From Hydrogenophilales bacterium 28-61-23 (lineage in GTDB: Bacteria > Pseudomonadota > Gammaproteobacteria > Burkholderiales > Thiobacillaceae), in contig NCGJ01000001.1 of assembly GCA_002281555.1 (NCBI GenBank), forward strand, positions 248,001-312,000: DNA of 64,000 bases, in the 5' to 3' direction. A model generated the notes under the pieces. It saw only the letters and a program-made list of their open reading frames with translations, made no database searches and was not told the origin of the DNA. The stretch's first letter is position 1. The number at the start of each line of letters is the position of its first letter. Below are positions 20,646-41,127 of this stretch, in pieces. The position numbers and the translations under genes are program-made.

Positions 20646-20664
20646 CATCAAAAAACCGTAAAGA
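20646..20664 (-). promoter_or_regulatory. KdpE-like 19-bp box, site A
   Basis: Plus strand CATCAAAA, AAC, CGTAAAGA, 46 nt upstream of the module-1 start. Confidence 0.6.
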
Positions 20665-20884
20665 TTGGACGCCGCGGTGTTAAGACTCGGTAACGGTCCA
20701 GGCTTGTGGCTTCAGCATGGATGCATCCCGCCCGCTGTCACAGAATGCCGCGAAAGAAGGCTGTCTATTGATCCGGTTGCTCAGGAAATTCTGAAAGCGA
20801 CTAAAGAGAGGCCGTGTGCGGCATCCCTGCGCCGCATATTCTGCGGTGCAGGGAGCCCGACCCGAAGTGACTTCAGGTCAAGCC

Positions 20885-23059
20885 TTACTTCAGGTCAAAA
20901 CGGTCGGCATTCATGACCTTGGTCCAGGCCGCGACGAAGTCACGCACGAACTTCTCCTTGTTGTCATCCTGCGCATAGACCTCGGCGTAGGCGCGCAGGA
21001 TCGAGTTGGAGCCGAACACCAGATCCGCCCGGGTCGCGGTCCACTTGACCTGGCCGGTCTTGCGGTCGCGGATTTCGTACAGGTTGCTGCCGGCCGGTTT
21101 CCACTGATAGGCCATGTCGGTCAGGTTGACGAAGAAATCGTTGGTCAACGCGCCGACCCGGTCGCTGAACACGCCGTGCTTGCTGCCGCCGTGGTTGGTG
21201 CCCAGCACGCGCATGCCGCCCACCAGCGCGGTCATTTCATGGGCGGTCAGGCCCAGGAGTTGTGTGCGGTCGAGCATCAGTTCCTCGGCACTGACGACAT
21301 AGTCCTTCTTCAGCCAGTTGCGGTAGCCGTCGGCGACCGGTTCCATCACCTCGAACGAGGCGGCATCGGTCTGCTCGGCAGTGGCGTCGCCGCGTCCGGG
21401 TGCGAAGGGCACGCCGATATCGAAGCCCGCCGCCTTGGCCGCCATTTCGACGCCGACGTTGCCCGCCAGCACGATGACATCGGCCACGCTGGCGCCGGTT
21501 TCGGCAGCGATCTTTTCATAGACCGCCAGCACCTTTGCCAAGCGGGCGGGCTCGTTGCCTTCCCAGTCCTTTTGCGGGGCCAGGCGGATGCGTGCGCCGT
21601 TGGCGCCGCCGCGCTTGTCCGAGCCTCGGAAGGTGCGAGCGCTGTCCCAGGCGGTCGCCACCATGTCGCCGATGGAGAGGCCGCTGGCGGCGATCTTCGC
21701 CTTCACGGTGGCGACGTCGTAGTCCTTACTGCCAGCCGTCACCGGGTCTTGCCAGATCAGGTCTTCTTTGGGTGCATCCGGGCCGATGTAGCGCGCCTTC
21801 GGACCCATGTCGCGGTGGGTCAGCTTGAACCAGGCGCGGGCGAACACTTCGGAGAAGTAGGCGGGATCCTTGTGGAAGCGCTCGGAAATCTTGCGATATT
21901 CGGGGTCGAACCGCATCGCCATGTCGGCGTCGGTCATGATCGGGTTGTAGCGGATCGAGGGATCCTCCACATCCACCGGCTTGTCCTCTTCCTTGATGTT
22001 GATCGGCTCCCACTGCCAAGCGCCGGCCGGGGACTTCTGCAGCCACCAGTCGTAGCCAAGGAGCAGGTCGAAGTAGCCGTTGTCCCACTTAGTGGGATGC
22101 GTGGTCCAGGCGCCTTCGATGCCGCTGGAGACGGTGTCGCGGCCGATGCCACGGCCGGTGTGGTTCATCCAGCCGAAGCCCTGTTCTTCAAGTTCGGCGC
22201 CTTCCGGGCTCGGGCCGAGGTTGGCGGCGCTGCCGTTGCCGTGGCACTTGCCGACGGTGTGGCCGCCGGCGGTCAGGGCGACGGTCTCTTCATCGTTCAT
22301 CGCCATGCGCTCGAAGGTGACACGCACATCGCGGGCGGTCTTGAGCGGGTCGGGTTTGCCGTCGACGCCTTCCGGGTTGACGTAGATCAGGCCCATCATC
22401 ACGGCGGCGAGCGGGTTTTCCAGATCGCGTTCGCCAGAATAGCGGCTGTTGGCGCTGCCACTTGGGGCGAGCCATTCCTTTTCGGAGCCCCAGTAGGTGT
22501 CCTTTTCCGGGTGCCAGATGTCCTCGCGGCCGAACGCGAAGCCGAAGGTCTTCAGGCCCATCGACTCATAAGCGATGGTGCCGGCGTAGGCGATCAAATC
22601 GGCCCAACTGAGCTTGTTGCCGTATTTCTTCTTGATCGGCCACAACAGGCGGCGCGCCTTGTCCAGGTTGACGTTGTCCGGCCAGGAGTTGATCGGCGCG
22701 AAGCGCTGGTTGCCGGTGCCGGCGCCGCCGCGTCCGTCTGCTATGCGATAGGTGCCGGCCGCGTGCCAGGACATGCGAATCATCAGGCCGCCATAGTGGC
22801 CCCAGTCGGCCGGCCACCAATCCTGGCTGTCGGTCATCAGGGCCGTGAGGTCGTTCTTGAGCGCCGCGAAATCGAGCGTCTGAACCGCTTCGCGATAGTT
22901 GAAGTCCTGGCCCAAAGGGTTGGTCTTGGCGTCGTGCTGATGCAGGATGTCGAGGTTGAGTGCCTTCGGCCACCATTCCATGTTCGACATGCTGGTCGCG
23001 GTCGCGCCGCCATGCATCACCGGGCATTTGCCCGAAGATTTCACGTTATTACCTTCCAT
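20885..23059 (-). CDS. katG: catalase-peroxidase
   Basis: 724 residues from the ATG at 23059 (TTGGAGATGACC supplies the ribosome site; longer frames to 23233 are non-coding). Distal heme site [18 protein letters not shown] with the catalytic Arg, Trp and His, and proximal [15 protein letters not shown] are present. The second half is the degenerate duplicate domain typical of KatG. It removes hydrogen peroxide. The 300-odd bases upstream show no clear OxyR site by eye. Confidence 0.97.
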
Positions 23060-23414
23060 GGTCATCTCCAATCGTAGTTGTGTAACAGGTACGGGTGAAT
23101 TTATGGACGCATGAGAATGGCCGTCGTGATGGCAAGAACCGATCCCCTCGTTGCCACCCGAGGCGCTGGCCACTTCAAGCGCAGAGCACTTTCTCAAACG
23201 ACGATTCAGATTAGCATTGGAGATGCCGCGCAAAACCGCCCAGGCCGATGGTTTTTCTGAATGGGCGCGATTGCTGATTTGAATCAGGCAGCGGCAATTG
23301 TGCGAGAGACGGTCGCGACGTATGCCGTTTGGCAGTTCGCCGAACGCAGCCTTGAGGGTGTTTTTCTTGCTGCGGCGAGCATTCAGGCGTTCTTTCCGGC
23401 CATCCTTTCTGAGT
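23060..23414. other. katG upstream region
   Basis: No convincing gene. A 66-codon plus-strand frame at 23261 has reasonable composition ([20 protein letters not shown]) but no ribosome site and runs out in the kdpC remnant. The katG promoter must lie on the minus strand here. Confidence 0.35.
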
Positions 23415-24003
23415 TCACCGCCGCTCCGCGCCCAGCGCCAGATTCAGTTGCAGTACATTGACCCGGGTTTCGCCAAGCACACCGAACTGGCGACCTTGCG
23501 TGTGTTTCTCGACCAAGCCGCGCACGCTTTCAATCGACAGGCCGCACAGGCGTGCGACACGCGGCGCCTGCCAGGCGGCGGCGGCCGGGCTGATGTGCGG
23601 GTCGAGGCCGCTACCCGAGGCGGTGACCAGATCGACCGGGATCGGCGCGGTCTTGCTTGGGTCGGCGGCTTTCAGGGCGGCGATGCGGGCTTTGACCGCG
23701 TCTTCCAGCGCCGGATTCAGCGGGCCCTGATTGCTGCCGCTGGAGGCGCCGGCGTTGTAGGGCAGCGGAGTCGTTAGCGCTTCAGCGCTTACGAATCCGG
23801 CGTCCCCCTTTTGCGGGGGCACCGGGCCGGTGGCCAAGAGGCGGCCCCAGAAGTACTTCAGATCGCTGAATGGCTGGATGTCACGTCCGCGCTGATGCAA
23901 GGTCGCCTTGGCCAGGACGACGATGGAACGGCTTCCAGGGTTTCATCGGCCAGCGCGGCTTCCGCCAGTTCCGCCGGGGTCACGCCGGACGCGGCGCAGT
24001 AAC
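23415..24003 (-). pseudogene. kdpC: broken kdpB'-kdpC' remnant
   Basis: The minus strand first encodes a short KdpB piece ([18 protein letters not shown], then after a frameshift [18 protein letters not shown], matching residues of the intact KdpB near 37900-38030). It then jumps into KdpC at [11 protein letters not shown] and continues to the KdpC end ([17 protein letters not shown]). The KdpC membrane anchor and most of KdpB are missing. The CorA-like gene stop at 23943 overlaps its start. It shows that a second kdp locus was deleted here. Confidence 0.75.
23765..23821. repeat. 57-bp in-frame palindromic insertion in kdpC'
   Basis: Relative to the intact kdpC at 36338-36916, exactly 57 bp are added between GTAGGGCA and CCGGGCC, adding 19 codons without a frameshift. 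Its core TTAGCGCTTCAGCGCTTA is an imperfect palindrome, in the style of Rickettsia-type protein-inserted palindromes. Confidence 0.55.
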
Positions 24004-40845: not shown

Positions 40846-40934
40846 GAGAATTTCTCCGGAAAGAACAGCGCGATGACCAGGTAGACGAACACCCCGGCCG
40901 CGGCCAATAAAGCGATCAAATAGAGCGCGTTCAT
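40842..40934 (-). CDS. kdpF: KdpF small subunit
   Basis: 30 residues: [20 protein letters not shown] then [10 protein letters not shown], single helix and a PEKF end as in KdpF. Stabilises the Kdp complex. Overlaps the kdpA start. Confidence 0.9.
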
Positions 40935-40935
40935 G

Positions 40936-41025
40936 TCAACGCCTCCGCAACTTGTCGAAAGCCAAGGCCAGCGCGGCGGTAATGCCGAAGAACGCCAGTG
41001 CGGCGAAGAGATAGATCAGGTCCAT
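40936..41025 (-). CDS. 29-aa membrane peptide upstream of kdpF
   Basis: MDLIYLFAALAFFGITAALA then LAFDKLRRR. A short helix with basic end, preceded by AGGAG, ending one base before the kdpF ATG. Similar tiny ORFs precede kdpF in many proteobacteria. Confidence 0.7.
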   Translation of the reverse strand: MDLIYLFAALAFFGITAALALAFDKLRRR

Positions 41026-41108
41026 GACAACTCCTGTGGATGCGAAAGATTACGCACTGAACTCTAGGCGGGTTCGGGTCAAGAAAAGGCCAAGACCGGG
41101 ACGAGCCG

Positions 41109-41127
41109 CATTAAGAAAACATCAAGA
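41109..41127 (-). promoter_or_regulatory. KdpE-like box, site E (kdp operon)
   Basis: CATTAAGA, AAA, CATCAAGA on plus, 84 nt above the first kdp ORF. This is the expected target of KdpE and anchors the motif. Confidence 0.65.

Follow-up and report, generated by a model that had tools for sequence, protein, structure and literature searches.

Background

KdpDE is a model two-component system with few known direct targets in E. coli, namely kdpABC plus adeP, uxaA and uxaC; 31 peaks are reported from chromatin immunoprecipitation with exonuclease digestion (ChIP-exo; PMC7657598). The E. coli KdpE site consists of the half-sites TTTATA and TTTACA, 11 bp apart, its published footprint extends from -72 to -50, and residues R193, R200 and T215 are needed for DNA binding (PMC3264566). 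In Sinorhizobium fredii, KdpE binds the kdpFABC promoter, and EIIANtr, of the nitrogen phosphotransferase relay, binds KdpD in both E. coli and Sinorhizobium (PMC9239096). A 22-bp binding sequence is described for M. smegmatis KdpE, and KdpE is absent from the main text of the P. aeruginosa transcription factor atlas. Here we analyze a 64,000-nucleotide stretch of the genome of Hydrogenophilales bacterium 28-61-23 (contig NCGJ01000001.1, positions 248,001 to 312,000; hereafter the window), in which five 19-bp boxes lie before genes for the potassium pump KdpFABC and before uncharacterized genes.

We propose, with a probability of roughly 0.85, that these boxes are KdpE operators and mark a KdpE regulon enlarged beyond the pump genes. 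In these bacteria, which appear to belong to the Thiobacillaceae, an EIIANtr-like protein and two small proteins, here called ModA and ModB, would then probably be induced along with the pump. If KdpE governs a wider, conserved set of genes that includes an EIIANtr of its own, this offers a direct way to test how potassium sensing and the nitrogen phosphotransferase relay are connected.

Results

Paired boxes at fixed distance from a -10 element

The original prediction had described five copies of one degenerate pattern, and all five are present, at 20646-20664, 26216-26234, 35152-35170, 35185-35203 and 41109-41127, with 0, 0, 3, 1 and 2 mismatches to that pattern, respectively. The 11-bp direct repeat and the positions relative to genes are likewise as described. 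Each box has two T-rich half-sites, 11 bp apart and directly repeated, with a core that is here mostly TTTA, TTGA or TTAA, and a box stands upstream of the kdp pump genes, as in a KdpE operator. Allowing up to 3 mismatches, these five are the only matches of the 19-mer in the window, where 0.52 were expected; none of 100 shuffled windows reached five.

The prediction had overlooked that the boxes come in pairs about 32 bp apart, and with this a proximal kdp box (41077-41095), a box on the plus strand (26299-26317) and a doubtful pair at 34260-34326. Aligned promoters of related genomes show two 19-bp boxes whose starts are 32 bp apart; 10 nt after the box nearer the gene comes a -10 element of the form TANNNT. 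The proximal kdpF box, TCTTGGCCTTTTCTTGACC, is followed in the same way by 10 nt and TAGAGT. The sites in the window are:

41061..41127, minus strand: kdpF promoter; distal box 41109-41127 (one of the five predicted sites), proximal box 41077-41095, -10 TAGAGT at 41061-41066
35136..35203, minus strand: promoter of a 53-aa open reading frame (ORF) and the EIIANtr-like gene (EIIA promoter); distal box 35185-35203, proximal box 35152-35170, 33 bp apart, -10 TAGCAT at 35136-35141
26200..26255, minus strand: module 2 (modA) promoter; box 26216-26234, -10 TAGGCT at 26200-26205, decayed distal half-site 26248-26255
20630..20685, minus strand: module 1 (modA) promoter; box 20646-20664, poor -10 ATGACT at 20630-20635, distal half-site 20678-20685
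26299..26333, plus strand: probable kdpDE site; box 26299-26317, 10 nt and TAGCCT, facing the window's kdpDE
34260..34326, minus strand: doubtful secD/secF site; two boxes 32 bp apart and TATTCT, upstream of secD-TM1/secF

A paired-box matrix trained on the relatives' promoters scored these sites at 53.9 (kdpF), 49.8 (EIIA), 35.5 (module 2), 31.9 (34260-34326), 29.1 (module 1) and 18.3 (26299-26333), against a largest score of 15.5 in 20 shuffled windows; two distal boxes counted alone score 20.8 and 20.4. A scan of positions 17300-36400 for the sigma-70 consensus found no match where 3.9 were expected, which fits activator-dependent promoters and proves nothing.

Genome-wide searches return sites before kdp-related genes

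The genome (3.51 Mb in 30 contigs, 98% complete) contains the window as part of the contig that we denote C7. The prediction had staked itself on the motif being rare genome-wide, and this stood at high stringency only. At up to 3 mismatches the 19-mer has 47 matches, versus 64 for a reversed control, and thus is not rare at that tolerance, while at up to 1 mismatch there are four sites: three of the predicted five and, ahead of a full-length kdpD, a box at C7:154919-154937, which is about 93 kb before the start of the window and about 114 kb from the nearest box in it. Exactly 2 mismatches add the kdp copy and a site on L005, which we took as a chance match since it lies inside an open frame.

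A first matrix, seeded with five boxes of this genome (modules 1 and 2, the two EIIA boxes and kdpD) and six modA boxes of relatives but no kdpF box, found the kdpF, EIIA and kdpD sites of relatives. Nineteen promoters from 10 related genomes then made up a 67-bp model (R1), with the sequence of this genome left out; R2 is a shorter model. Searched against this genome at E<=10, with 150 of 662 candidates scored, R1 gave six matches, namely the five predicted sites and the distant kdpD promoter: kdpF 2.2e-8, module 1 3.0e-5, module 2 5.3e-5, kdpD 0.0019, EIIA proximal 0.0105 and EIIA distal 0.98. The kdpF promoters are the cleanest test of R1, and the top match, kdpF, was not among the seed boxes. 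R2, with 150 of 333 candidates scored, returned EIIA proximal, kdpF, module 2 and kdpD at E values of 0.03-0.27. In the window alone the five sites rank first with R1; R2 with filters off gives 13 matches at E<=10, among which module 1 (E 1.6) ties with unrelated places.

R1 was also run over 148 other genomes under stricter filters (E<=0.01, at most 34 candidates scored per genome), KdpA being called present at E<=0.001. Matches fell in 29 genomes at 43 places, and were found in 25 of 41 KdpA-positive versus 4 of 107 KdpA-negative genomes (p 1e-13; 40 of the 41 exceed the Pfam cut-off). Without the 10 training genomes the counts are 15 of 31 versus 4 of 107 (p=1.6e-8), including G074, a near twin of a training genome. 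Among KdpA-negative genomes, the G008 match lies near a contig end, upstream of a kdpD of which the contig holds the first residues, and in G062 (L156 5322-5388, minus strand) it lies directly before a kdpE, with no other kdp gene in the 10 kb covered. The kdp-type promoter of G062 thus adjoins kdpE in the way that deletion of the pump genes would leave it. The fourth KdpA-negative match is in G064. The matches in the KdpA-positive G096 and G112 are not near kdpA, and those in G114 and G112 were rejected as kdp promoters, tblastn showing no kdp gene nearby. R1 had 21 matches in seven relatives at E<=1; kdp loci account for 17 of them, and the 4 at other places are weak (E 0.3-0.46).

The fixed spacing extends beyond close relatives and to E. 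coli

With a matrix that left out one genome at a time, every one of the 18 kdp loci scanned in relatives had a site scoring at least 16 upstream of kdpA, a count that is partly circular because five loci had been chosen for their R1 matches. The spacing is 32 bp in 16 of these (33 in G011; G007 lacks a distal box). A fairer set of 15 of 30 KdpA loci, all 13 from other families and two of genus g12, lay outside the training set. Here the best box scored at least 16 in 11 loci, and 9 of the 15 had its best partner at a distance of exactly 32 bp (two of these partners being weak, at 2.7 and 0.2), compared with 36 of 3000 site-free windows.

At the published E. coli KdpE site the relatives-trained matrix scores 41.1, and across 10.5 kb of E. 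coli kdp DNA, scanned as two stretches, it places one promoter at or above 16, at the known site, whose distal box is listed too. In the MG1655 kdpF promoter, exactly 32 bp beyond the known site, there is a second pair, TTTTTGCG-AAA-TCTTTGCA, followed by 10 nt and TACCCT. The E. coli kdpF promoter (L116 2857-2923, minus strand) thus has a second T-rich direct repeat. By reckoning from the -10 element, the published footprint covers the distal pair only; the parts of PMC3264566 and PMC5458449 available to us make no mention of a second KdpE box at E. coli kdpF.

The uncharacterized genes belong to a kdp cluster in relatives

Searching six related genomes (loci L101-L106) by tblastn with the window's proteins, kdpF not among the queries, revealed one colinear cluster: kdpABC, (porin), (53-aa ORF), EIIANtr-like, modA, modB, (CorA-like), kdpDE. 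The kdpABC, EIIANtr-like, modA, modB, kdpD and kdpE genes occur in 6/6, the porin in 5/6, the CorA-like gene in 4/6, and the 53-aa ORF was detected in 3/6. The genes that had been described as unknown are therefore old members of the kdp cluster, which supports their predicted tie to potassium limitation. The modA box is kept upstream of modA in all six, and the EIIA promoter was likewise found in G089, G065 and G054.

In the present genome the cluster is scattered. The kdpFABC-porin-53aa-EIIA part lies at 34.3-41 kb; modA-modB-corA at 23.9-26.2 kb, followed by kdpB/kdpC remnants; the divergent kdpD(half)-kdpE at 26.4-28.5 kb; a second modA-modB at 20 kb; and on C7 outside the window stand a box, a probable modA remnant (a short stretch), a full kdpD and a kdpE. 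The cluster thus broke up and was duplicated here while the candidate operators stayed. The cluster genes in the window are:

40936-41025, minus strand: hydrophobic 29-aa ORF between the kdp promoter and kdpF
start at 40934, minus strand: kdpF (the stretch from the 29-aa ORF to kdpC is 36338..41025)
39037-40845, minus strand: kdpA
36939-39014, minus strand: kdpB
36338-36916, minus strand: kdpC
35422..36210, minus strand: TorF-family putative porin (Gcw_chp; PF09694 4.9e-54, TIGR02001)
34902..35063, minus strand: 53-aa ORF (p53), with a homologue in 3/6 relatives' extended clusters
34351..34869, minus strand: EIIANtr-like gene (PtsN paralogue; PF00359 3.7e-25, PDB PtsN 4.5e-33; start codon uncertain)
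25813..26172, minus strand: modA of module 2 (119 aa, no family)
25626..25799, minus strand: modB of module 2 (58 aa, CxxC...CxC)
23943..25607, minus strand: CorA-like membrane protein (PF01544 1.7e-6; 75-83% identical in 4/6 relatives' clusters)
20259..20600, minus strand: modA of module 1 (113 aa, no family)
20072..20245, minus strand: modB of module 1 (58 aa)
26362..27858, plus strand: KdpD C-terminal half (DUF4118-HisKA-HATPase), without the KdpD/Usp sensor part
27855..28541, plus strand: KdpE (NF007820 317.6 bits; 58% identical to E. coli KdpE)

In the EIIANtr-like protein the IPH motif retains its histidine, and H79, which we take to be the phosphorylated histidine, is invariant in 6/6 aligned sequences. 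It scores 101.5 bits against the PtsN equivalog TIGR01419 (cut-off 138.7) and for this reason is called a PtsN-like paralogue rather than ptsN itself; a second match in the genome lies at C15:99247-99732.

In another family, a paired KdpE-type promoter heads a series of genes in G124 (L152 8346-9450, minus strand). The series starts with a P-II-like gene, which at 22.2 bits stays below the PF00543 cut-off of 25, continues through ORFs of 64 and then 96 aa with a modB-like gene between them, and ends in kdpDE; a CorA-like frame lies on the opposite strand. With its predicted promoter, this is a parallel to the cluster.

Two KdpE proteins with conserved DNA-binding residues

The KdpE of the window scores 317.6 bits against the NCBIfam KdpE equivalog (NF007820), just below the cut-off of 325 and the best of 105 families (next 194.3). 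Since it falls short of that cut-off, it is named by its neighborhood and contact residues: R193, R200 and T215 are invariant in 4/4 aligned proteins (E. coli, both KdpE proteins of this genome and G037). The distant kdpD is full-length (910 aa), contains the only PF02702 match of the genome (C7:154068-154694) and is followed by the second kdpE, 60% identical to that of the window. A full KdpD-KdpE pair thus lies about 120 kb from the sensor-less pair of the window, on the same contig.

Weaker sites and the number of independent promoters

The 26299-26333 site on the plus strand faces the window's own kdpD(half)-kdpE, its -10 element 29 nt from the kdpD(half) start codon, and autoregulation of kdpDE through this predicted site is therefore probable; the site is absent from the R1 and R2 match lists for both window and genome. 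The 34260-34326 pair is weak in the window (R1 E 2.7, R2 E 1.6) and overlaps a nine-pair hairpin (34283-34305) with a T run just after EIIA, for which reason it may be a terminator. As a candidate KdpE-type promoter it has even odds at best, chance or a terminator being quite possible.

Spacer agreement is 13/26 for each pair among modules 1, 2 and the distant kdpD promoter. The doubtful secD site reaches 13/26 with module 2 as well, so such agreement alone is no proof of common ancestry. The values are 10/26 for kdpF versus EIIA, 8/26 for kdpDE versus kdpF and 2/26 for kdpDE versus EIIA. By this comparison the genome would have about three independent promoter kinds (kdpF, EIIA and modA) and a fourth if kdpDE is counted; the first three recur in the relatives.

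Alternative explanations

Several observations weigh against an enlarged KdpE regulon. Two of the five sites belong to modules 1 and 2, which are gene duplicates, and do not count as independent; in both modules the distal box is reduced to one decayed half-site, before the distant kdpD it is gone, and the -10 element of module 1 is poor (ATGACT). R1 is not blind to the sites of this genome, because its training sites were picked with a matrix seeded partly by boxes from it, and R2 fails to recover module 1 in the genome search. Of the 41 KdpA-positive genomes, 16 gave no R1 match at E<=0.01, and in G142 three further matrix sites at or above 16 are not kdp promoters. Finally, two KdpE proteins are encoded, either of which may be the acting one, and the KdpD of the window lacks its sensor half.

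The most serious alternative is that the module 1 and 2 boxes are leftovers of duplication without present function, only kdpF and EIIA being controlled. The modules are indeed paralogous, their ModA copies 83% identical over residues 8-119; the defects of their promoters just described and the probable modA remnant before the distant kdpD point the same way. Yet 15 of 16 positions of the proximal half-sites are identical between the modules while their spacers agree at only 13/26, and the same box precedes modA in six relatives, which makes this explanation unlikely. Less probable still is that the boxes are the sites of a different OmpR-family regulator with kdp among its targets. Sites of this family do resemble one another, being 11-bp direct repeats before a -10 element. 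Signals can also cross, since PhoR can phosphorylate KdpE in E. coli (PMC7657598). Against this, the only promoter that the matrix puts at or above 16 in the 10.5 kb of E. coli kdp DNA scanned is the one at the known KdpE site, and the sites track kdp genes across families, including kdpE in a genome without KdpA. Chance T-rich matches in a GC-rich genome would explain why, at 3 mismatches, the 19-mer matches no more often than its reversed control, but hardly the outcome of the window shuffles, the kdp-related promoters returned by R1 genome-wide or the 32-bp/10-nt geometry fixed across families; we regard this as next to negligible. The KdpE reading of the boxes is favored by the relatives' promoter model, the recovery of the E. 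coli site, the kept contact residues and the cluster in six relatives.

Other observations in the window

Behind the CorA-like gene, at 23415-24007 on the minus strand, lie remnants of a second kdpB and kdpC, which suggests that a second kdp operon was lost. A free-standing SecD N-terminal fragment and SecF (PF13721, PF02355) occupy 32882-34192 on the minus strand, with a further SecD/SecF match pair on contig C13. Module 1 is followed by a PhnD-PAS-GGDEF protein (Pfam, NCBIfam).

ModA was found in this genome and clearly in 6 of 148 other genomes searched, a seventh (G040) being marginal at E 8.8e-4. Its origin as a domesticated IS110 domain was considered and kept as a lead only. PF01548 matches 7 of 8 ModA members at E<=1 (best 0.008), with 14.5 bits for the module 1 copy against a cut-off of 29. 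In a Foldseek search with a ModA model (predicted local distance difference test score, pLDDT, 57), which looked for the RNase H-like fold that IS110 recombinases have, 7 of the first 8 rows were IS621 or ISCro4 recombinases, presumably of the IS110 family, at E 0.16 or worse; in VIA-align of the model, 20 other entries rank above the IS621/ISCro4 rows. Profile comparison was negative: hhalign of the ModA profile with four IS110 domains gave 0.1%, no match, and the profile matched only three PDB sequences, at E 1.6 or worse.

Discussion

The architecture suggests how such promoters might work. Each half, TCTTNAYG, would be the site of one KdpE subunit, and two halves 11 bp apart a dimer site; a full promoter would hold two dimer sites about 32 bp, or three DNA turns, apart on one face of the DNA. 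The nearer dimer would end 10 nt before the -10 element, a geometry observed directly, and KdpE would then occupy the -35 position. The geometry and known OmpR-family activators suggest that RNA polymerase could thus be recruited at a promoter without a -35 element. At low potassium, KdpD would phosphorylate KdpE, and kdpFABC, the EIIANtr-like gene, ModA, ModB, the CorA-like gene and kdpDE would be turned on. Our best guess for the EIIANtr-like protein is that this KdpE-driven paralogue tunes the KdpD kinase by feedback, given the binding of EIIANtr to KdpD in both E. coli and S. fredii.

In its boldest form, the proposal would be that kdp promoters generally, E. coli included, bear an overlooked second KdpE dimer site over -35, and that Thiobacillaceae KdpE drives a feedback module (EIIANtr paralogue, ModA, ModB and CorA-like) tuning KdpD and the pump. 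This double claim could go either way. The fixed two-box geometry, found also in E. coli, predicts KdpE occupancy over the -35 region.

Among known systems, the PhoB-dependent promoters with their Pho boxes, as other OmpR-family sites, carry tandem direct repeats with an 11-bp period just before the -10 element. The candidate promoters described here share this repeat period and placement, and differ in half-site sequence and gene set. In the PTSNtr-KdpDE-KdpFABC system of S. fredii, the binding of EIIANtr to KdpD and of KdpE to the kdpFABC promoter is documented (PMC9239096). Unlike in S. fredii, a separate EIIANtr paralogue lies here inside the kdp cluster and is preceded by a KdpE-type promoter of its own in this genome and in G089, G065 and G054. 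The E. coli KdpDE-kdpFABC system is alike in having, in MG1655, the second box at 32 bp and the -10 element 10 nt beyond it; compared with the E. coli targets, it is the promoters of the EIIANtr-like gene, of ModA/ModB and of kdpD that here bear a KdpE-type site.

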